NCBI RefSeq assembly: GCF_000746025.2
Contig: NZ_CP045798.1
Coordinates: 1,846,501-1,910,500, forward strand
DNA: 64,000 nucleotides
From: Thermanaerosceptrum fracticalcis
GTDB lineage: Bacteria > Bacillota > Peptococcia > DRI-13
Direction of reading: 5' to 3'
Of this stretch, positions 8,696 through 44,015 are shown in pieces. A program made the translations under genes and the position numbers. Position 1 is the stretch's first letter, and every line of letters starts with the position of its first letter. The notes under the pieces were generated by a model. It was given only the letters and a program-made list of their open reading frames with translations. It had not been told where the DNA came from and made no database searches.

Positions 8696-9244
8696 CTACT
8701 TATAAGTAGGCTTCGGGTTTATAACCCCAATGTAGGGAAGGTGACGGTATTGTTCATTATAATCAAGCCCGTAGCCTACAACAAACTCATCCGGTATTTC
8801 ATACCCGTTGTAATCCGGAGTAATAGCGATCTTCCTGCGACTGGGCTTGTCCAGGAAAGTACAAATTTTTAGACTGCGGGGTCCCCTGGCCAAAAGGTTT
8901 TCTTTGAGATAGGTCAAGGTTAAACCGGTATCTACAATATCCTCAACTACCAGTACATCTTTGCCTGCGATATCCAGTTCAAGGTCCTTAAGAAAACGCA
9001 CTACCCCTGAAGTATGGGTAGAGGTACCGTAGCTGGAAACAGCCATGAAGTCCATTTGCAGGGGAACCTTAATTTCCCGGATAAGGTCCGACAAAAAAAC
9101 CACAGCACCTTTTAAAATACCAATCACAAAGAGGTCTTTATCCTTATAATCACCGGTAATCTGCTGTCCTAATTCCTTAACCCTTTTTTGGATTTCCTCT
9201 TCCTTAAAGAGAATTTTCAAGATATTTTCCTCCATTGACCACAT
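8696..9244 (-). CDS. hpt: Hypoxanthine phosphoribosyltransferase
   Basis: Purine salvage enzyme making IMP/GMP from hypoxanthine/guanine and PRPP. The PRPP-binding motif VLVVEDIVDTGLTL is near residue 100, with SYGTSTHTSG upstream and the C-terminal purine-pocket segment VVGYGLDYNEQYRHLP. Two starts are possible: ATG at 9244, with GAAGGG directly in front, and a second ATG at 9235 (MEENIL), better spaced from that site. Co-transcribed with guaA. Confidence 0.95.
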   Translation of the reverse strand: MWSMEENILKILFKEEEIQKRVKELGQQITGDYKDKDLFVIGILKGAVVFLSDLIREIKVPLQMDFMAVSSYGTSTHTSGVVRFLKDLELDIAGKDVLVVEDIVDTGLTLTYLKENLLARGPRSLKICTFLDKPSRRKIAITPDYNGYEIPDEFVVGYGLDYNEQYRHLPYIGVINPKPTYK

Positions 9245-16030: not shown

Positions 16031-16194
16031 TAAGAGATTGAAAGTTCCGGACGCAATAGAGGAAATAATGATTTATAATAATATATGTTGGGAATGCCCG
16101 ATATCTGCACGGGATTGGCGCGCCCATGGGCGGACCCAATATCGGCTACCGTGGTTAACGGGGGGATCATCTCCGCCGGGTAGATATGGTCCAA

Positions 16195-16209
16195 ATCATA
16201 ATGATAAAT
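16195..16209. promoter_or_regulatory. Upstream activator site candidate 1
   Basis: ATCATAATGATAAAT, with the perfect palindrome ATCAT-A-ATGAT, identical to a second copy 80 bp downstream and about 190 bp upstream of a sigma-54 promoter. Confidence 0.5.
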
Positions 16210-16274
16210 TATTTCAAATTGATAAAGGTCGCGGAATATCTGGCTTGCACGAGAATAAACAAGCCATGGATATT

Positions 16275-16289
16275 ATCATAATGATAAAT
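16275..16289. promoter_or_regulatory. Upstream activator site candidate 2
   Basis: Second identical 15-bp copy, about 110 bp upstream of the sigma-54 promoter. Eighty bases between copies puts them on similar helical phase (about 7.6 turns). Confidence 0.5.
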
Positions 16290-16385
16290 ATTGAGGGTAT
16301 TTGGAGCAATTGATTCAAGCAAGTGATAATAGACGAATGCTCTAGTTTGAAAGCCAGGGCATTTTCTTATTATATCCGATTAAAT

Positions 16386-16404
16386 TTTGGCATGATTATT
16401 GCAA
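16386..16404 (+). promoter_or_regulatory. Sigma-54 promoter of the alr operon
   Basis: TTGGCATGATTATTGCAA: TGGCAT, 5 bp, TTGCA, with the invariant GG and GC 12 bases apart. Only one mismatch from the -24/-12 consensus. Start of transcription is expected near 16414. Confidence 0.75.
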
Positions 16405-16518
16405 AGTACAGGGAGCGCGGCTGTTATCTAACAGGTCATAGCATGAAAATATAAACAGACAGTCACTGTTAAACAAGAGTATTCCCCGGACTCCAAAAGA
16501 AAAGAGGTGATAAACTGA

Positions 16519-17739
16519 GTGGATATAATGGAAAAAAACCGCCCCGTATGGGCAGAAATCAACTTGAAAAACATCATTCACAATTATCGAGAAGTAAGAC
16601 GTATAATTGACCCCCATGTGCAAGTGATGGCCATTGTAAAGGCTAACGCTTACGGACACGGGGCGATAGAGGTAGCGAGGTCTTTGAGTAGCGCTGGCGT
16701 AGACAAATTTGGTGTAGCCCTCATGAATGAAGCTGTTCAGTTGAGAAAGGCCGGAATTGATAAGCCAATCCTTATCTTGGGTTGGACGCCAGTGGATGAT
16801 TATGCCAGAGCACTTAAACACCAGATTACCTTGACCCTATTTTCTCTGAAAGAAGCCCAGGCCTTATCACAGTTAGCGTTAGAAAAAAATCAGAAGGCAA
16901 CCGTACATATCAAGCTTGATACTGGAATGGGTCGTATTGGATTCCAGGCGGATCAACCGGGTTTACAACAGGTGGGAGAAATTTTAAAATTACCGGGCCT
17001 TGATGTGGAAGGTATTTTTACCCATTTTGCCAAGGCTGATGAAAATGATAAATCCTATACTCGTAAACAGTTGGAAATCTACCTGGACTTTGTAACCAAC
17101 CTGGAAAAAAGTACTGGCTTTAGATTCAAAATAAAACATGCCGCAAACAGCGCAGCAATTATTGATTATCCCCAGGCACATTTGGATTTGGTGCGGCCTG
17201 GTATCATACTTTACGGGCTAAAACCTTCAGACGAAGTGGATATGTCGAAAGTAGAATTACGCCAGGCTATGGCCTTACGGGCTAGGGTGTCCCATGTTAA
17301 ACAGGTGCCACCAGGTTGTTCTATCAGTTATGGTGGCAAGTTTGTTACCCGGGAGCCTTCAGTAATTGCTACTTTGCCCCTGGGATATGCAGATGGTTAC
17401 AGTCGGCTGCTATCAGGAAAGGCACAGGTCCTGTGTAAAGGGGAGAAGGCGCCAGTCGTAGGCCGTATTTGTATGGATCAACTGATGTTGGACGCTACAC
17501 ATCTCAAGGGCGGTGTGAAGCAAGGGGATACTGTTACTTTGATTGGATGGGACCAGGATAGTTCTATCTCTGTCGATGAGATAGCAGAATTATTGGGAAC
17601 CATCAATTATGAAGTGGTTTGTATGGTAACAGCGCGCGTTCCAAGACTCCATTTTTCCATACCTAGTAATTCCCTATGCAGCGGAAATTGCCAACAAGGG
17701 CTGGAAACAGGCTGTTCTGAAAAATGCCAGCCTGGCTAA
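16519..17739 (+). CDS. alr: Alanine racemase
   Basis: PLP enzyme interconverting L- and D-alanine. The PLP lysine is in IVKANAYGHGA (about residue 37), the second catalytic base tyrosine in SISYGGKF, and PLP-binding segments LDTGMGRIGF and LPLGYADGYSR are intact. GTG start nine bases after GAGGTG; an in-frame ATG nine bases later is the alternative. The true domain ends near VTARVPRLHF; the last 26 residues, with four cysteines, come from reading out of frame through an alanine dehydrogenase remnant, showing that a deletion removed the native stop codon. Likely still functional. Transcribed from a sigma-54 promoter. Confidence 0.93.
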   Translation: MDIMEKNRPVWAEINLKNIIHNYREVRRIIDPHVQVMAIVKANAYGHGAIEVARSLSSAGVDKFGVALMNEAVQLRKAGIDKPILILGWTPVDDYARALKHQITLTLFSLKEAQALSQLALEKNQKATVHIKLDTGMGRIGFQADQPGLQQVGEILKLPGLDVEGIFTHFAKADENDKSYTRKQLEIYLDFVTNLEKSTGFRFKIKHAANSAAIIDYPQAHLDLVRPGIILYGLKPSDEVDMSKVELRQAMALRARVSHVKQVPPGCSISYGGKFVTREPSVIATLPLGYADGYSRLLSGKAQVLCKGEKAPVVGRICMDQLMLDATHLKGGVKQGDTVTLIGWDQDSSISVDEIAELLGTINYEVVCMVTARVPRLHFSIPSNSLCSGNCQQGLETGCSEKCQPG

Positions 17740-17830: not shown

Positions 17831-17898
17831 CTATCCGTAACAGATAATTACGTAGTAGTAGATTAAGATGGTTGGCGAATAAAAAAAGGAGGTTCAAT

Positions 17899-18762
17899 AT
17901 GAGGGCTGTTGGTTTGTTTGATGGAAAAATTATTGAGGTTGATGAACCGGTAATACGTATTGAAGACCGCGGCTACCAATTTGGTGACGGCGTGTATGAT
18001 GCCTGGGTAGCAATTAACGGTAAACATTTTTTACGGAAAGAGCACCTGGACAGATTAGAAAGAAGCTGTAATCTCATCGGAATCAAACCTTGTTATACAC
18101 GTAGGGAAGTAGAGGAATTTACAGACAAAATGCTCCAAGAGTCCGGTATAGATTTTGGCATTATCTATCTGCAGTGGACTCGGGGCTGGCAGTCTCCACG
18201 AAGCCACATAATCGGCAAGGATGTTAAACCTCTCATATCCGGTATGGCATTCCCTCTCAACCCCTATCCCGAAGAATTTTTTACCAAAGGAGTCAAGACT
18301 ATTTTTTATCCTGACGAGCGTCATCTTATGTGCCATATCAAAACTCTTAACCTGTTAGGAAGTGTGAGGGGTAAAAATGCTGCTGCTGAAGCAGATGCCT
18401 ATGAGGTTCTCTTTGTACGTGAAATGAATAACGGTTCGTTTGTAACCGAGTGTAGTCTTAGCAACTGCTTTGCAGTTAAAAACGGGGTTATTTACACTGC
18501 TCCCAACGGCAAGTATATTCTGCCCGGTATTACCCGCGGTGTTATCATCGATCTGGCTAAAAATCTCGGATATAAATTAGTGGAGGAATTCCAGACACCG
18601 GATTTCTTTAGAAATGCCGATGAGATTTTTATTACCAACGCCACTGCGGTTATGCCCAATACCGTATTGGATGGGAAACCCGTAGGAGACGGTAAAGTTG
18701 GACCTGTTACCAAAGCCCTGATAGCAGAATACCAAAAGCTTATTGATAAAGTTTGCTATTGA
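17899..18762 (+). CDS. dat: D-amino acid aminotransferase (class IV)
   Basis: Fold-type IV PLP aminotransferase, 287 residues, converting D-alanine and 2-oxoglutarate to pyruvate and D-glutamate. Family motifs: IEDRGYQFGDGVYD near 26-39, the PLP lysine in CHIKTLNLLGSV, FVTECSLSNCFAV, and the phosphate-cup ILPGITRGVI and TNATAVMPN. The ATG at 17899 follows AGGAGG by six bases; nine codons upstream of it are not expected to be translated. Downstream of alr it would complete L-Ala to D-Ala to pyruvate, replacing the lost dehydrogenase. A branched-chain aminotransferase role is less likely. Confidence 0.88.
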   Translation: MRAVGLFDGKIIEVDEPVIRIEDRGYQFGDGVYDAWVAINGKHFLRKEHLDRLERSCNLIGIKPCYTRREVEEFTDKMLQESGIDFGIIYLQWTRGWQSPRSHIIGKDVKPLISGMAFPLNPYPEEFFTKGVKTIFYPDERHLMCHIKTLNLLGSVRGKNAAAEADAYEVLFVREMNNGSFVTECSLSNCFAVKNGVIYTAPNGKYILPGITRGVIIDLAKNLGYKLVEEFQTPDFFRNADEIFITNATAVMPNTVLDGKPVGDGKVGPVTKALIAEYQKLIDKVCY

Positions 18763-18770
18763 AAAGGTTC

Positions 18771-18810
18771 GGATAGTTGTTGAAAGACTATAATCTTTCG
18801 ACAACTATCC
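18771..18810 (+). terminator. 17-bp hairpin after dat
   Basis: GGATAGTTGT-T-GAAAGA / TCTTTC-G-ACAACTATCC with a 6-base loop. It lacks a T-tract, so it may be an mRNA-stabilising or partial terminator structure between dat and ykvI. Confidence 0.5.
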
Positions 18811-18971: not shown

Positions 18972-20075
18972 ATGACAGAGGGCAAGTCCAGTAGCTTACT
19001 AAACATTATCCGTTACGCAGGCGCTTACATCGCACTTATTATCGGCGCCGGTTTTGCATCTGGCCAGGAAGTAATGCAGTTCTTCACTACTTTTGGTTAT
19101 TTAAGTTTAGGTAGTTTTGCAATTGTAATCGTGTTGTTTGCCTTTTTCGGTGTAGTTTTCGTGAATATGGGCCATCGTTTAAATTGTAATACCCACGGCC
19201 CGGTGCTTCGCTATTTTTGTGGGAATCACCTTGGCACTTTTTTCGAGTGGGTTACGACATTCTTTATTTTCGGTATTTTTGCTATTATGATTTCCGGCGG
19301 CGGTGCAGCCTTAACGCAGTACTATGGAATTAACCCATACGTTGGTCGCGCTATTATTACTATAGCATCTATAATTACTGTTTTATTAGGCTTGAATGCA
19401 CTGGTTAATGCTATTAGTGCTATTGCCCCCGTTACTATCATTATTTCTTTAATTATTGGTTTAGCAACATTTATTAACAATCCTGGCGGTTTTGCCAATG
19501 TTACAGCTGCATTACAAACAGTTTCTGTTGCTAAGGCAGCTCCAAACTGGTGGCTATCGCCTTTCATTTACGTTTCATATAACATTATGTGTGCTATTCC
19601 GCTCATGGTTGCCATTGGCCAAAGTGCGCCTGTTATTGGTGAAGCTCGAAAAGGCGCCATTCTTGGTGGTGTTGCTTTAGGTGGAGCCGCTATGATTCTC
19701 AACCTCGGTATGCTCTCAATCATTACCGAAGTATACAATAAAGATATACCCGTTCTTTATATGGCTGATAAGGTTATCCCCGTAATAGGTGCTATCTTCT
19801 CTCTCGTTTTGATTGGTGAAATCTACTCGACAGCTGTACCTTTACTCTATACGTTTGCCGCACGTTTTACCAAGGAAGGGACAAGCCAGTTTAAAAGAAT
19901 GACAATTGGAACTGCTATCGCTGGTTTTGTTGTGGGTTTGTTCCCCTTCGCCAAACTGGTTGGTACTTTATATCCCTTCTTTGGTTACATCGGCCTTTTC
20001 GTTATGGCAGCTGTGTTCTTTAAAACATTCATTAAAAGAGGAACGATTCCCGAGTCATCCAACACTGCTTCATAA
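18972..20075 (+). CDS. YkvI-like amino acid transporter (LeuT fold)
   Basis: Integral membrane protein of 367 residues, about ten helices. Signature near the N-terminus: IIGAGFASGQEVMQFF, the unwound first helix of LeuT-fold carriers, characteristic of YkvI/branched-chain amino acid carrier-like proteins; IMISGGGAAL and VSYNIMCAIPLM follow. The substrate is unproven; the neighbourhood (alanine racemase, D-amino acid aminotransferase) favours alanine or another small amino acid. GGGGG ribosome site before the ATG, strong terminator after. Confidence 0.82.
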   Translation: MTEGKSSSLLNIIRYAGAYIALIIGAGFASGQEVMQFFTTFGYLSLGSFAIVIVLFAFFGVVFVNMGHRLNCNTHGPVLRYFCGNHLGTFFEWVTTFFIFGIFAIMISGGGAALTQYYGINPYVGRAIITIASIITVLLGLNALVNAISAIAPVTIIISLIIGLATFINNPGGFANVTAALQTVSVAKAAPNWWLSPFIYVSYNIMCAIPLMVAIGQSAPVIGEARKGAILGGVALGGAAMILNLGMLSIITEVYNKDIPVLYMADKVIPVIGAIFSLVLIGEIYSTAVPLLYTFAARFTKEGTSQFKRMTIGTAIAGFVVGLFPFAKLVGTLYPFFGYIGLFVMAAVFFKTFIKRGTIPESSNTAS

Positions 20076-20209: not shown

Positions 20210-20241
20210 AAGGGATTGACCAAAAAAATGGTCAGTCCCTT
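20210..20241 (+). terminator. Terminator of ykvI-like gene
   Basis: 12-bp stem AAGGGATTGACC/GGTCAGTCCCTT (one G-T pair), followed by TATAGTTA. Confidence 0.75.
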
Positions 20242-20639: not shown

Positions 20640-22448
20640 ATGACGAAGCTGGGAATGATCAAGGAATTTGTACAGCAGGCTGCAAAAGTTATTGCTGCCA
20701 CCCTGGAGGTAGAAGTGGTCATTATCGATGACCAGCTCTCCATTGTAGCGGGTACAGGAGTTTATGAAGAGAGGGTTGGTAGCGTATTTGAAAAAAATTC
20801 CATTAGTCATCAGGTCCTGGTTACAGGAAAGACCTTTATCATTCCGAATTCCAAGGAACACGAGGCCTGTGAGCTTTGTCCCCATCGCACCCTCTGTCCG
20901 GATGCAGCCGAAATTGCCCTTCCCATTATTGTTCAGGGCGATGTGATCGGGATTTTTGGCATTGTAGCCTGTAATAATGAACAAAAAAATATTATCTTAA
21001 AGCAAGAGAAAAAACTGGTGGATTTCAGCGCCAAAATTTCGGACCTTATCGGTTCAGCTATAGATGCCAGGCAGTTAAATGATCAATTATCCTTATTGGC
21101 TTCGGAATTTCAAACTGTTATTAACTCCGTCACAGATGGTATTATCGCCATCAACGAGTCCGGTATAATCACCCAGGTTAATAATACTGCCCAATCCCTG
21201 TTGAGAGTGCCACGGGAACAATTGCTCAACAAAAAGGCGATAGAAATATTTAAAGATCCCGTAGTCAGTTACGCTCTTATGGCACAAAGCGTGTTGAATA
21301 ACCAGGAAATCTACGCGGAAATTGCAGGAAACAAGCTCTATTTTTTGGCTTCTATGACCCCGATTCTGGGTAAAAACAACGTGGCTGGTAAAGGAAACGT
21401 TTTAGTGATCAGAAATATGTCCGAAGTAAAGAAACTGGTTGGTAACTATCTTAAAAAGCAAAGAAAGATTACCTTCGACGATATTAAGGGAAGCGGTACT
21501 TCTATTACACAAATCAAGGACAAGGCCAGATTGGTTGCTGCAAGTGATTCTACCATTCTTATTCTGGGCGAAAGCGGAACCGGTAAGGAATTGTTTGCCC
21601 GGGCCATTCATTCCGCCAGCTTCAGGGCTGATGGGCCCTTTGTGGCTCTAAATTGCGGAGCCATACCCGAGTCATTGTTGGAAAGCGAGTTGTTTGGTTA
21701 TGATGATGGCGCATTCACCGGGGCAAGGCGGGGGGGTAAGGCAGGACGCTTTGAACTTGCCAATGGCGGAACTCTTTTTTTGGACGAAGTCGGGGATATG
21801 CCACTCCACCTTCAGGTTAAGTTGCTGAGAGTATTGGAGGAAAAAGCAATTATGAGGCTGGGGGGTACTGTTTCTATTCCTGTAGATGTAAGGATCATCA
21901 CTGCCACAAACAAGGATTTGGAAAAGATGGTGCAGAGGGGAGAATTCAGGCAGGATCTGTATTACAGGTTTAATGTTATACCCTTGTTTATTCCTCCACT
22001 ACGGAACAGAAGGGAAGATATATCCATTCTTATGGATTACTTCAGAAGAAAATTTAATACTTTACTGGGTAAAAACGTAACAGGTTTTTCTGCCGAGGCT
22101 GAACAAAAACTTATGAATTATTACTGGCCAGGGAATGTGCGTGAACTGGAAAATGCCATCGAGTATGCCATCAATATGGAACAGAGCAGTATCATTCAGA
22201 TTTCCAGCATACCATCCCATATTCTTGTAGATTTCCGGGGAAATACGGCTGGGGACTCCAATTATTTAGATATACCGACTATGGAGGAAATGGAGAAGGA
22301 GTTAATTGTCAGGGCTTTAAAAAGATACGGCAACACGGCTATCGGTAAAAAGAACGCTGCCAAAGCTCTTTCAGTTGGATCTGCCACATTGTACCGGAAA
22401 ATTAAGAAATACAAGATTACCGATGAGTTAATTAAGAGGTATATATAA
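20640..22448 (+). CDS. Sigma-54-dependent transcriptional activator (sensor-PAS-AAA-Fis)
   Basis: Enhancer-binding protein of 602 residues. N-terminal GAF-like sensor (1-145) with the cysteine-rich [12 protein letters not shown] near residue 79; PAS domain (about 155-270); AAA+ domain (about 280-520) with Walker A GESGTGKE, the sigma-54-contacting GAFTGA loop, Walker [12 protein letters not shown] and the arginine-finger segment [11 protein letters not shown]; Fis-type HTH at the C-terminus ([24 protein letters not shown]). The nearest sigma-54 promoter is that of the alr-dat-ykvI operon 4 kb upstream, so it is the likely activator. The ligand may be an amino acid or redox signal through the cysteines (inference). 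Confidence 0.92.
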
Positions 22449-22467
22449 TTTCGAAGGCTGATATAAT

Positions 22468-22569
22468 TTGGATATAATATTAAGTATTTTATCCATTACG
22501 ATTATTGATCTGGCTCTTTCTGGCGATAATGCAGCAGTCATTGGGTTGGCAATTAAAGACCTGCCGTAA
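22468..22569 (+). pseudogene. 5' remnant of a TerC/YjbE family membrane protein gene
   Basis: 33 codons from TTG reading DIILSILSITIIDLALSGDN and AAVIGLAIKDLP before a stop. This is the conserved first helix of TerC-type proteins (LSGDNAxVI is diagnostic); everything downstream is lost. Known TerC genes are linked to manganese export. Confidence 0.7.
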
Positions 22570-25379: not shown

Positions 25380-26990
25380 TTATTCCACAGCATCTACTTC
25401 CGAGATAATATTTCCCTCTTTCTTATCCTCCTTCTTCAGACACCTGTAAATCTCCTCAAGACGTTTCTGCACCTTGTAGAATACTGTACCCTCGGGATAG
25501 TTACCCTCTGCATCGGGTGTACCCGCCGGGACACCGGTCAAAATTTCAATACCTTCTTCGATGGCCTTAACGGCGTAGATATGAAACTTACCGTCTTTTA
25601 CCGCTTCAATCACTTCGTCATCAAGCATGAGGTTAGCCACGTTCTGATAAGGAATCATCACCCCCTGTTTGCCGTTTAAACCCTTGGCCTTACAGACCTG
25701 GAAGAAACCTTCAATTTTCTGATTAACCCCGCCGATGGGCTGGACCTGTCCTTTCTGGTTTACAGAACCTGTAACCGCGATGTACTGTTTGATGGGTATC
25801 CCGGAAAGACTGGAGAGGAGCCCGTATAATTCGGTACTGGAAGCGCTGTCACCGTCCACCCCGTCATAGAGCTGTTCAAAACAGATGCTGGCAGAAAAGG
25901 AGAGGGGACATTTCCGTCCGAACTTTTCTCCCAGGTACCCGCTCAAGATGAGCACACCTTTGTCATGAATGCGCCCGCTCATTTTGGCTTCCCGTTCGAT
26001 ATTGATAATGCCCCGCTGACCCATATAGGTATTGACGGTGATCCGCGAGGGCTTGCCAAAGGAATACTCCCCCAGATCCAGAACGGCCAGCCCGTTTACC
26101 TGCCCCACTACCTTTTCTTGGGTGTCAATGAGGATGACACCTTTTTCGATCATCTCCTGGAGCTTTCTCTCGTACTTGTTGGCCCGGAAAATCTTTTCCT
26201 TGATAGCCTTCACAACATATTCCTCGGTGACCAGGTCCGCACCTGCCAGCTCAGCCCAGGTGTCGGCTTCATAAATTATTTCCACCAGTTCGTTAAAACG
26301 CGTGGAGAGCTTTTCCTGGCTGTCAGCCAGGCGGGAACTATATTCTACAATCCTGGCTACTGCCATTTTCGTAAAGTGACGGAGTTTCTCTTTCTGGCAA
26401 TGGTCACTGATAAACTGGGCCAATTTAAACATGTGGCTCTGGGTACGTTCCATTTCCACATCAAAATCGGCACGGATTTTAAAGAGTTTACGGTAGTCCT
26501 CATCATAATTGTAGAGAATCTGGTGTTCCAGGTAGCTGCCAATTAAGATGATTTTTACATCCAGGGGGATAGGTTCAGGCTTAAGGGAAGAAGTAGCAAT
26601 GGTGCCGATATGTTCAGCAATATTTTCAATGGTGATTTTCTCCGTTTTAAGTGCTCTCTTTAAAGCATTCCAGGTAAGGATGTTGGTTAACACATCACTG
26701 CACTGGAGAATCAGGTATCCCCCGTTGGCGCGGTGTAATGCCCCGGCCTTGATTTTCGTAAAATCTGTGGTTAAAACTCCCAGCTGGGTTTCATACTCCA
26801 CCCTGCCGATAAGGTTATAGAAAGTAGGGTTGCTCTCTACAATGACAGGAGCTCCCCGGGTTTTGCTGTTATCCACCAGGACATTGACCATATACTTAAA
26901 TGTAAAATCCTTAGCCCGTTCATCCTTAATAACAAACATCTCCAGGGGTGACTTTTCTTCCTTACCTTTGAATTCCTTTAGATTTTTTAA
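25380..26990 (-). pseudogene. Lon-related ATP-dependent protease, C-terminal part (IS-interrupted)
   Basis: About 536 codons carrying the end of the AAA+ module and the S16 protease domain of a LonB-like 'Lon-related putative ATP-dependent protease'. The catalytic serine lies in DGDSASSTELYG and the lysine in GGVNQKIEGFF; strand motifs KPSRITVNTYMGQ and GVLILSGYLGEKFG are present. The frame is open but joined upstream to an insertion sequence with a stop codon inside the element's terminus. Removing the IS and one TSD copy restores an in-frame junction (DILKNLKEF). An internal ATG at 26939 could start a truncated product, lacking the ATPase. Confidence 0.9.
26984..26990. repeat. Target-site duplication, left copy
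   Basis: TTTTTAA, repeated at 28619-28625 on the other side of the IS. Confidence 0.85.
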
Positions 26991-28618
26991 CAGGAGTTAT
27001 GCAGTTGGTGGAAATAAATAGAAAATGATAACTCAAAAAATATTTTAAAAAAGATCCTAATTTTCGACAAAAAAGGCTTGACTTTTTCGGAAAGCCCCCA
27101 TAATCGCTTTGGATGGTATTTTCTACCATCACTCTAGCGATATGGGTGATGCTGATGAAGAAACTGTGTAAACCAACTTTCGAAAAAAAGGATCACGGTC
27201 AAGGTGCCGGAATCCCGGTACTCAAGACAATTTGGGATTTATTTGACCTGTCTCTGCTGTTTTCCCAGTCCGGAATACGCAAACACTCCGGAATTCCAGC
27301 GTGGCTCCTGGCTTTTGCCTACATCTGCGGCCTTGTTAATCATTCAAGTTCTGCAAATCAAAATGCTAAGTTTTCAACGGAAGCTCCATTTTTACAACAA
27401 CTGCTTTCCGGGCAAATCATCTCTCAAAGTGCCTTCAGCCGGTTTCTCTCCAAGCCCTTTCAGTGGCTCCGGTTCTCTTTGGGCAGATTTGCCAGGTTAC
27501 AAGAAAATACGGATAGCAGGCTGACCGACGGCGATATCATTGCCTTAGACGATACCAAAATTGAGCATCCTCACGGTAAAAAAATCCCCTTTCTCTGTTG
27601 GCTCTTTGACAGTTCGGATAAGCGCCATGTATGGTGTATTAATCTTGTGTCGACCCTGGCTATCTTAAAGAATGGTCTTGAATATCCCATGTTATGGCGC
27701 TTTTGGGTTAAAACCGGTCAGGAGAATGAAAAACAAAGCAAGCTTGATCTTGCTAAACAGATGCTCGCAGAGGCTCGTCAGCTGAACAAGGCCAGACTAT
27801 GGGTAGCCATGGATCGCTGGTTTTTGTGTAAAAAGTTCCTGAACTGGCTGATGGGTCAAAATTTTGACTGGGTTACCAAAGCCAAACGTAACACAGCGCT
27901 ATTCAGGAAAATCTACGACCCGGTACTAGGAAAGGAACGCTACATTAAACTTAATCCGAAGCAACTGCTGCGAGAAGTTTATTCCCAGCTTCGGGTCCTT
28001 GGCAAAGAATCGGTTCTCAGTATTCCGGACATTTACATCAAAATGCCCTATGAGACCTTAACACGCAAGGGAAAACCCATTACTAGACAACGTTTTTTAC
28101 CCATAGCTGCCATTGCAGCCACTTATGAGAAGCAGGCTGTCGAGGGCAGCATAGTTCTTCCGGAGGAAGAATGCCCAGCAACCTTCAAGGATGCGTATCT
28201 CCTGATAAGCAATCGCGTAGATACGCCGGAAGAAGCTGCAACTGCCTATGTTAAACGATGGAGAATAGAAGTTTTTTACCGCACCGCTAAACAGAATCTT
28301 GGTTTAACATCTTGCTATGCTCAGTCTGAAACAGCTCATTTCGCACATGTGGAGCTCTTGTTTACAGCGAAGACCCTTCTTTGTTATGCCTCTTGGGAGT
28401 GCAATAAAGAAGGCGCCGAACAAGCCCCCTCCCTCTGCGAAGTGATAAGGTACTTCTTCAACGCCGGTTGTCGGATCCGCTGTTGCGAGCAGTTGATCCA
28501 AGTCTATTTTGACACGGCAACCCAGCGTTTTTCAAGGCTTATTGATAAATTCTGGCCACATTCTTTGGAACTTAGGTTATGGGATTGGGAAAATTATCCT
28601 GAAACTGCATAACTACTG
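26991..28618 (+). mobile_element. IS4-family-like insertion sequence, complete
   Basis: 1628 bp, bounded by imperfect inverted repeats CAGGAGTTATGCAGTT (26991-27006) and the complement of CAGTAGTTATGCAGTT (28603-28618), one mismatch in 16. It carries one transposase gene and is flanked by a 7-bp direct repeat TTTTTAA. It lies inside the Lon-related protease gene in the opposite orientation. Exact ends and clean duplication indicate a recent insertion. Confidence 0.9.
27113..28612 (+). CDS. IS4-family DDE transposase
   Basis: 499 residues. Catalytic acidic residues are visible: IIALDDTKIEHPHGKK (first Asp), WVAMDRWFLCKKFL (second Asp) and the Y-R-E-K signature KRWRIEVFYRTAKQNLGL (Glu). The frame is intact and full length, so the element may be active. 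The TAA stop lies inside the right inverted repeat. No strong ribosome site precedes the first ATG; translation could begin at internal ATG codons near residue 13-15. Confidence 0.9.
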   Translation: MVFSTITLAIWVMLMKKLCKPTFEKKDHGQGAGIPVLKTIWDLFDLSLLFSQSGIRKHSGIPAWLLAFAYICGLVNHSSSANQNAKFSTEAPFLQQLLSGQIISQSAFSRFLSKPFQWLRFSLGRFARLQENTDSRLTDGDIIALDDTKIEHPHGKKIPFLCWLFDSSDKRHVWCINLVSTLAILKNGLEYPMLWRFWVKTGQENEKQSKLDLAKQMLAEARQLNKARLWVAMDRWFLCKKFLNWLMGQNFDWVTKAKRNTALFRKIYDPVLGKERYIKLNPKQLLREVYSQLRVLGKESVLSIPDIYIKMPYETLTRKGKPITRQRFLPIAAIAATYEKQAVEGSIVLPEEECPATFKDAYLLISNRVDTPEEAATAYVKRWRIEVFYRTAKQNLGLTSCYAQSETAHFAHVELLFTAKTLLCYASWECNKEGAEQAPSLCEVIRYFFNAGCRIRCCEQLIQVYFDTATQRFSRLIDKFWPHSLELRLWDWENYPETA

Positions 28619-28625
28619 TTTTTAA
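28619..28625. repeat. Target-site duplication, right copy
   Basis: TTTTTAA, identical to 26984-26990. Confidence 0.85.
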
Positions 28626-29447
28626 AATATCCTTCTTTACTTCTTCGAGAAAATCTCCCACAGGAGGAAAGTCGCTGTATTCTTCCTTCAGGTTTTCGAA
28701 CAGGTGCCCGATAGCGGCAATCACCAGCTGGCTTTCCAGCCTTTCCACCTGCTCATGGATTTCCTTTTCCAGATCCCTGATTTTTTTGAAGGCATCTAAA
28801 ACCAGAAAATTAATGGCTTTGGATTTTTCCTCAATTTCCTTGATGGCTTCTCTGGAAAGCTGTTTATACTCTTCTTCATCCATTTGTTTCCCCTCGGCAT
28901 TGAGGGGAATGGTTAATATTCCTTTTTCCGTATTCTTTAAAGCAAAACCCAATTTTTTCGCGGCCTCATCCAGGGAGTTCCAAATCTCTGCCTGCCGGTC
29001 CTGCAGGCTCTGGTATAGCATGGTTTTTCTTTTCCCATATTCCTCCGAAGCCAGGGCTTTGGGGATGTTCAATTTTACCTGGTTAACCAGTTGAGTCATG
29101 TCATTTTGGAATTTAACCCCCAGCCCGGGCGGCAGGGTTAGCGCCTTAGGCTGGTCAGGCTTTTCAAAATTATATACATAGCACCAGTCCCAGGGAATCT
29201 CTTCCTGCATGGCCACTTCCTTTACCAGGGATTGGGTATAGCTGTTGCGACCGGTTCCCGTAAAACCAGAAATAAAGATATTGTAGCCATGCTTTCTAAT
29301 TTTTAGGCCAAACTCCATGGCTTTGACGGCCCGTTCCTGGCCAACTATTCCCTCCAGAGGCGGTACCTCTGCGGTAGTCTCGAAGGGAAAAGCAGCACAA
29401 TTACAGGCGCTTTTTAGTTGTTCGGGAGTTAATTCCCATTGTTTCAT
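28619..29447 (-). pseudogene. Lon-related ATP-dependent protease, N-terminal part (IS-interrupted)
   Basis: About 276 codons: the N-terminal AAA module with a variant Walker A (FISGFTGTGRNSYTQS, Arg in place of Lys, as usual in this subgroup) near residue 55-70, and a long coiled-coil insertion (about 130-260: KIRDLEKEIHEQVERLESQ). ATG at 29447 follows AAGGAGG. Translation now runs into the IS and stops 15 codons later. The intact protein would have been about 810 residues. Confidence 0.9.
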
Positions 29448-42281: not shown

Positions 42282-42298
42282 AGCAAATACCATGCCAA
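42282..42298 (-). promoter_or_regulatory. Sigma-54 promoter of the dsrC-hdr-flox operon
   Basis: Minus strand TTGGCATGGTATTTGCT: TGGCAT, 5 bp, TTGCT, with GG and GC correctly spaced. Transcription should start about 25 bases before the first dsrC-like ATG. Confidence 0.8.
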
Positions 42299-42485: not shown

Positions 42486-43802
42486 TTACAAGCCGTATTT
42501 TTGCATTTTATTATAAAGGGTTTTACGGGTTATACCAAGGAGCTGGGCCGCCTTTTGTTTATTTCCTTCACACTGTCTTAATACTTGTTTAATATGATGT
42601 TTTTCCAGGTCATCCAGCCTGATAAAAGCGCTGTCCCCAGTGTTGGCTGTCATAATCATATAAAGGGGCAGGTCTTGCAGCATGATAAAATCCCCCTTAC
42701 CCTTTATAAAGGCATATTCTAAGGCATTTTCCAGTTCCCGGACATTTCCGGGAAATTCATATTGGAGTAAAAAGTTTAAAGCCTCCCGGGAAACTCCTTT
42801 TTTAGCCTTTTGAAAAAAGACATTAAACCTACGAATGAAGTATTCGTTTAAAAGAGGAATATCGTTTTTCCTCTCCCTTAAAGGGGGCAGCTTTATCGGA
42901 AAAACATTTAAACGATAAAAAAGGTCCTGGCGGAAATTACCCTTCCTTATTTCCTCAGTTAAATTGCGATTGGTGGCTGCAATAACCCGCACATCGGTTT
43001 TTAGTGTTTTCTTCCCCCCTACCCTCTCAAATTCCCCCTCTTGCAACACCCGGAGCAGCTTGGCTTGTAAAGATACCGGAATTTCCCCAATCTCGTCCAG
43101 GAAAATGGTGCCTTTGTCAGCCAGTTCAAAACGGCCCTGGTGGGTGGAATGGGCACCGGTAAAAGCCCCCTTCTCGTGTCCAAAAAGTTCGGACTCCAAC
43201 AGGGTGGGCGTCAAGGCCGCACAATTGACTTTTATAAAAGGTTTATAACGCCTGTCGCTTAAAAAATGTATGGCTTTAGCTACCAGCTCCTTTCCCGTGC
43301 CGCTTTCACCTACAATGAGGACACTGGAACGGTAGGGAGCCACAGCTTCGACCATTTCATATATTTCCTGCATTTTATGGTCTTTGCCGATAATATTTTG
43401 AAAACTATAACGCCCTTCGAATTCCTGGCGCAGGCGCTGGATTTTACGCTGGTCGGAAAGAATTTCTAAACCCCCGATTATATTCCCAGAGTTGTCAAAT
43501 AAGGGCATCACCGATATTTCTACAGGAACAAATTCGCCATTCTTGGCTACAATAACCACATCAGTGGAATAACCCTTTTCTCCGCTGTTTACTACTTTTT
43601 GCATGAGACAATTTTCTCCGCAGCAATGGGAGCTTTTCAAAAGTTCGTAACACTTTCGACCCAGGGCAGTATCCCGTTTGTAGCCCGTAATATGCTCTGC
43701 CGCATTATTAAAGGTAGTTATATTAAATTCTGTATCCACAGTGAAAACCCCTTCAGAAATACTGTTGACTACAAACTCAAAATCTATCTGTGTTGGGCTC
43801 AT
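42486..43802 (-). CDS. Sigma-54-dependent transcriptional activator (PAS-AAA-Fis)
   Basis: 438 residues. N-terminal PAS domain (about 5-120) containing the unusual cysteine group SSHCCGENCLMQ; AAA+ domain (about 130-370) with Walker [15 protein letters not shown] loop, GTIFLDEIGE and FRQDLFYRLNV; C-terminal Fis HTH (GNKQKAAQLLGITRKTLYNKMQKYG). Start ATG at 43802 after a run of G; the longer frame start is unsupported. It precedes the dsrC-hdr-flox operon, whose sigma-54 promoter it should activate, and borders the ORP/MinD cluster. The PAS cysteines suggest redox or metal sensing (inference). Confidence 0.92.
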   Translation of the reverse strand: MSPTQIDFEFVVNSISEGVFTVDTEFNITTFNNAAEHITGYKRDTALGRKCYELLKSSHCCGENCLMQKVVNSGEKGYSTDVVIVAKNGEFVPVEISVMPLFDNSGNIIGGLEILSDQRKIQRLRQEFEGRYSFQNIIGKDHKMQEIYEMVEAVAPYRSSVLIVGESGTGKELVAKAIHFLSDRRYKPFIKVNCAALTPTLLESELFGHEKGAFTGAHSTHQGRFELADKGTIFLDEIGEIPVSLQAKLLRVLQEGEFERVGGKKTLKTDVRVIAATNRNLTEEIRKGNFRQDLFYRLNVFPIKLPPLRERKNDIPLLNEYFIRRFNVFFQKAKKGVSREALNFLLQYEFPGNVRELENALEYAFIKGKGDFIMLQDLPLYMIMTANTGDSAFIRLDDLEKHHIKQVLRQCEGNKQKAAQLLGITRKTLYNKMQKYGL

Positions 43803-44015
43803 CCCATTCCCCCCCCTTCTTCCTTGACGCTCACACAGGGGCAAGCCCCGTGTAAGCGTTAATTACTTGTGGATTACAATACTATACAAATGATAATTGA
43901 CAAGAATATTTGCTATGTCGTACCCCTCCATTGCAGCGGTTTTCTTGCAATGTGCAAGCTAAAAGAGACATATAGGGAAAAATTCATAGAGGGAAAAGTG
44001 GGCATGAAAATAAAT
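43803..44015. other. Gene-free promoter region of the activator gene
   Basis: About 210 bp; contains an imperfect inverted repeat around 43824-43860 (GCTCACACAGGGGC / GCCCCGTGTAAGCG) in the activator's leader. No further gene seen. Confidence 0.35.

Follow-up and report, generated by a model that had tools for sequence, protein, structure and literature searches.

A predicted sigma-54 control region and a recurrent helix-to-site association at an alanine/D-amino-acid operon of Thermanaerosceptrum fracticalcis

Within the 64,000 nucleotides of Thermanaerosceptrum fracticalcis DNA analyzed here (the window), positions 16193-16403 most likely constitute a sigma-54 control region, where the activator encoded at 20640-22448 would bind three sites and drive the operon alr-(ald remnant)-dat-ykvI for the use of alanine or a related amino acid. 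Judged from its letters, the region acts like a sigma-54/enhancer-binding-protein regulon in each of the defining features that can be tested on them, and the switch would very probably activate alanine and D-amino-acid enzymes together with a transporter. More general than the operon is a second result, namely the association between the recognition helix of the activator and its sites, along with a shared three-site layout. The features on which the model is built are the following.

16193..16207, plus strand: predicted activator site A, AAATCATAATGATAA, two mismatches to TTATCA-N3-TGATAA, containing the first 15-mer
16211..16225, plus strand: predicted activator site B, ATTTCAAATTGATAA, two mismatches, 18 bp from A
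16273..16287, plus strand: predicted activator site C, TTATCATAATGATAA, perfect, containing most of the second 15-mer
16387..16403, plus strand: sigma-54 -24/-12 promoter TTGGCATGATTATTGCA, a consensus match, with a near-identical promoter, TGGCATAATTATTGCA, at the ortholog
16519..17739, plus strand: alr, alanine racemase; the racemase part ends near 17655 and is followed by a tail of about 27 residues
17657..17830, plus strand: ald remnant (alanine dehydrogenase, C-terminal 55 codons or so), joined to the 3' end of alr by deletion
17899..18762, plus strand: dat-like D-amino-acid transaminase gene, with its ATG after AAAGGAGG; the mechanical ORF starts at 17872
18771..18810, plus strand: hairpin between dat and ykvI, 17-bp stem, -26.2 kcal/mol, z -7.3
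18972..20075, plus strand: YkvI-like integral membrane permease, named by resemblance
20210..20241, plus strand: hairpin after ykvI, 13-bp stem, -21.6 kcal/mol, z -5.8, terminator-like with a poor T run
20640..22448, plus strand: sigma-54 activator with a GAF/SpoVT_C-like N-terminal domain, PAS, AAA+ with GAFTGA, and a Fis-type HTH
22374..22400, plus strand: recognition helix VGSATLYRK, within the activator gene

The element that defines a promoter of this class, TTGGCAY-N5-TTGCW at -24/-12 upstream of a gene, is found at alr as TGGCATGATTATTGCA (16388-16403), preceded by a T at 16387. The pattern TTGGCATN5TTGCW has 21 matches in the genome and 0 for its reversed control; this promoter class is thus real in the genome and the match at 16387-16403 points strongly to a sigma-54 promoter, in agreement with the original prediction. 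A search for sigma-70-like sites from 15760 to alr found none on the plus strand. The presence of rpoN is implied by the many activators with GAFTGA that the genome encodes, and transcription would be expected to start near 16415. The window carries a second consensus sigma-54 promoter on the minus strand (42282-42297); it immediately follows another activator gene, which lies on the same strand at about 42489-43862.

Two identical 15-bp copies upstream of this promoter had been proposed as the binding sites. Indeed, ATCATAATGATAAAT occurs exactly at 16195-16209 and 16275-16289, at about the claimed distances of 190 and 110 bp, and the genome scan that had been suggested returned these two as the only exact copies in 3,805,411 bp. 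At up to two mismatches, the window holds four matches vs. 0.19 expected. When the window and ortholog loci are compared, the better unit proves to be the palindrome TTATCA-N3-TGATAA, with three copies upstream of the alr promoter (starting at 16193, 16211 and 16273); the description as 'twin' sites had overlooked the third, weaker copy at 16211-16225. Site C is the sole perfect TTATCA-N3-TGATAA in the whole genome. When the 300 bp preceding the promoter are shuffled, 0.05 sites are expected at up to two mismatches; three are observed, a number reached in 0 of 20,000 shuffles. The sites begin 195, 177 and 115 bp upstream of the -24/-12 element, where an enhancer-binding protein is expected (several sites 100-250 bp upstream being the usual layout in a clostridial sigma-54 survey, PMC6615313), and they are conserved together with the activator that is predicted to bind them. 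Just before the sites stops an open tail (16088-16183, LGMPDICTGLARPWADPISATVVNGGIISAG) that resembles the C-terminus of a lost gene; its peptide gave no match in a Pfam search and was therefore rejected as a member of a Pfam family.

The product of alr is a full racemase (403.8 bits against TIGR00492, above the equivalog cut-off of 168 bits). The genome holds a second alr (68% identical) at a different position, with a mazEF-like neighborhood, and the copy in the window is therefore free for a special role. Its tail of about 27 residues is the ald remnant read out of frame: translation from 17657 yields IPYAAEIANKGWKQAVLKNASLAKGLNVVNGQITYKAVAETHNLSYTPLEQAI, which matches the C-terminal end of the genome's intact Ald (G000:C1:1318166) at 78% identity. 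Since this remnant follows the racemase domain, the ancestral operon was probably alr-ald-dat-ykvI. The remnant ties the operon to alanine, and ald, its clearest catabolic gene, is now lost from it. The regulon that had been called complete is hence reduced by a deletion that left only the last 55 or so codons of ald between alr and dat. The intact ald was rejected as a regulon member, as its 16-kb region contains no consensus sigma-54 promoter and the genome no further perfect palindrome; it adjoins an ACT/TyrR-like activator gene of about 415 aa (L104:8110-10667).

The transaminase scores 245.5 bits against TIGR01121, below the equivalog cut-off of 277.45 bits, and is here named D-AAT-like because its closest solved structures are D-amino-acid aminotransferases and its residues align at the Arg-x-His and Lys positions, which in 1DAA serve D-specificity and catalysis. 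The sole match to the transaminase at E 1e-70 across 398 phylum genomes was a paralog in its own genome (51%). No family model matched the permease, so the name YkvI follows resemblance. Because strong hairpins follow both dat and ykvI, co-transcription of ykvI is an assumption of the model; the hairpin at 18771..18810 is possibly a processing or attenuation element. A search with the activator, Alr and the permease in 40 relatives plus the class (46 genomes) found no second copy of the operon.

In the proposed mechanism, the activator would bind palindromes A-C as a close pair plus a single site, loop the DNA to the sigma-54 polymerase at 16387-16403, and open the promoter of alr-(ald remnant)-dat-ykvI by ATP hydrolysis. 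The products would then import alanine or a related amino acid, Alr would interconvert L- and D-alanine, and the transaminase would convert D-alanine to pyruvate, its amino group going to a 2-oxo acid. As the signal, the N-terminal domain of the activator, which carries a Cys-x2-Cys cluster, probably senses an amino acid or a related small molecule. Similar to alanine catabolic operons of the dadAX type, whose second racemase is catabolic, the operon contains a second racemase; those operons have a D-amino-acid dehydrogenase, whereas here a transaminase and a permease occur under predicted control of a sigma-54 activator.

The direction of the pathway is the part of the model that meets the most serious competitor. 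With activator and sites as proposed, the operon may instead supply D-alanine or D-glutamate for wall or spore peptidoglycan, or handle another D-amino acid. With an alanine racemase and a D-amino-acid transaminase a cell can form D-Glu from D-Ala, and the operon encodes such a pair; moreover, ald has been deleted from it and the ortholog of the activator controls other genes. Against this stand the housekeeping alr elsewhere in the genome, the ald remnant, which indicates breakdown, and the combination of a permease with an activator from an amino-acid-catabolic subfamily, which points to uptake and use. We regard these alternatives as unlikely, though with a real share of the probability, and retain alanine or related amino-acid use as the preferred reading.

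The activator has the domains of an enhancer-binding protein (PF00158 at 237 bits, a PF02954 match, GAFTGA). Its best NCBIfam match is PrdR, the activator of proline reductase genes, with which it has the PAS-AAA+-HTH core in common; yet it reaches 424 bits against an equivalog cut-off of 795 (NF041552). In PMC6615313 the PrdR site type is TGT-N10-12-ACA. As in CdsR-cdsB and OrdR-ord, amino-acid catabolic genes adjoin a GAF/PAS-type sigma-54 activator, and the neighbors of related activators are amino-acid genes as well (cysteine-desulfidase-like, ornithine-type, DpaL-type). The CdsR/OrdR-related activators beside such catabolic genes (L106, L107, L109, L110) differ in having another helix and no TTATCA-N3-TGATAA sites. 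The same domain plan and recognition-helix type as in the window activator are found in the DioR group and the E. coli YgeV-like gene. Loci with DioR/YgeV-like gene content (L108, L184, and the related L186 and L204) carry TTATCA-N3-TGATAA sites, mostly as a pair plus a single site. Nevertheless, the window activator falls outside this clade, grouping with its ortholog at 100/100 and apart from L108, L184, L186 and L204 in a tree with some long branches. The DioR targets given in PMC6615313 are dpaL/ygfK/ssnA/ygeY/pbuX; targets of the dpaL/ygfK/ssnA/xdh/pbuX type are absent beside the window activator, whose neighbors are alr, dat and the permease. Among the 39 groups of that survey, no alr, ald or dat target appears in the part available, and to this extent the operon may still be called undescribed. 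It would add an alanine/D-amino-acid operon to the sigma-54-run amino-acid pathways of anaerobic Bacillota.

A search of 398 genomes of the phylum with the sensor domain of the activator yielded one clear ortholog (genome G123; 58% over this domain, against about 37% for the runner-up), in a distant MAG, 'Bacillota bacterium isolate Soudan_17' (locus L153), with 60% identity over the whole protein. Right at the end of its activator gene lie the sites cTATCAATATGATAA, TTATCATATTGATAg and TTATCAAAATGATAA, followed by the promoter TGGCATAATTATTGCA, 163 bp after the gene; three sites at up to one mismatch were reached in 0 of 20,000 shuffles. This promoter precedes genes for a distant permease and a class III aminotransferase, without alr. 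The proposed alanine/D-amino-acid link is supported by the gene set of the window (alr, D-amino-acid transaminase, permease), and the targets at the ortholog differ. Just after the window activator gene, 22465-22569 is a short remnant that covers just the N-terminal end of a TerC-family membrane protein.

The composite pattern TTATCAN3TGATAA-N(76-106)-TGGCAYN5TTGCW has three matches in the 398 genomes (window, ortholog and G089) and 0 for its reversed control. Sites and activators also go together by helix. Among activators of the fetched loci with a sigma-54 promoter within 6 kb, a perfect site lies upstream for 6/7 with the helix [IV]G[ILMS]ATLYRK vs. 0/39 others (Fisher 7e-7), a rule framed after five cases and tested afterwards on L184 only, with rows inside one clade not independent of each other. 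In this sixth case, L184, the activator beside the sites does carry the helix. At L112 helix and promoter are present and no site was found. The helix type is scattered over separate places of the activator tree, several branches of which are long. A close pair (17-20 bp) with a single site 56-69 bp away recurs at five of six loci, the A-B spacing of 18 bp agreeing with the pair at four others; L184 differs, with two perfect sites 103 bp apart. Because four other activator loci share the motif, we rejected the idea that it is private to the alr regulon. The assignment of the sites to the 20640-22448 activator stands insofar as the association recurs at the ortholog and at activators with the same helix, whereas the motif is common to DioR/YgeV-like activators.

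A different sigma-54 activator of the genome might of course occupy the sites, there being more than 30 activator-like matches to choose from. Among those inspected, a part of this number, only the 20640-22448 product has the [IV]G[ILMS]ATLYRK helix, and a distant genome combines its ortholog with the same kind of site and promoter, which renders this alternative quite improbable. That the palindromes are metal or peroxide repressor boxes (Fur/PerR type), located there by accident, is suggested by site C, two bases away from the PerR box TTATAATNATTATAA. We rejected this reading, now highly improbable, for two reasons: TTATCA/TGATAA retains its C and G from locus to locus around a variable center (AAA, TTT, ATT, AAG, TAA), and its half-sites run in the order opposite to the Fur box. 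In addition, the sites accompany activator genes and sigma-54 promoters. Chance repeats in an AT-rich gap that contains the short open tail described above are scarcely credible in view of the shuffle tests, the whole-genome uniqueness and the ortholog, the composite search by itself making them very unlikely.

Binding of the sites by the window activator therefore remains our preferred reading, and a broader proposal can be attached to it tentatively, at slightly under even chances: activators with the helix [IV]G[ILMS]ATLYRK may follow a fixed helix-to-site code across Bacillota, TTATCA-N3-TGATAA in a pair-plus-single layout, the window activator running an undescribed sigma-54 alanine/D-amino-acid regulon. 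If so, the protein alone would suffice to predict where an orphan activator binds and which genes it controls. The comparison yields a testable helix-to-DNA rule and a shared three-site layout by which sites and targets may be assigned to such orphans.

Further loci show weaker versions of the motif. At the E. coli YgeV-like activator (L238), which has the same helix, the sites all carry two mismatches (6 vs. 0.67 in shuffles); degenerate sites of this kind lie between the divergent genes at the activator (L238:6776-6819) and upstream of xdh-like genes (L238:12644-12658). At locus L113, degenerate copies lie at three places 69-196 bp upstream of a sigma-54 promoter at 8930 (minus strand), with spacings of 61 and 66 bp; the activator beside it has a different helix (ISVSTLYRR), and a motif variant is possible. 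Elsewhere in the window, 25380-26939 and 28572-29447 (minus strand) appear to be two halves of one Lon-like ATP-dependent protease gene (25380-29447), split by a transposase ORF at 27113-28612 on the plus strand.
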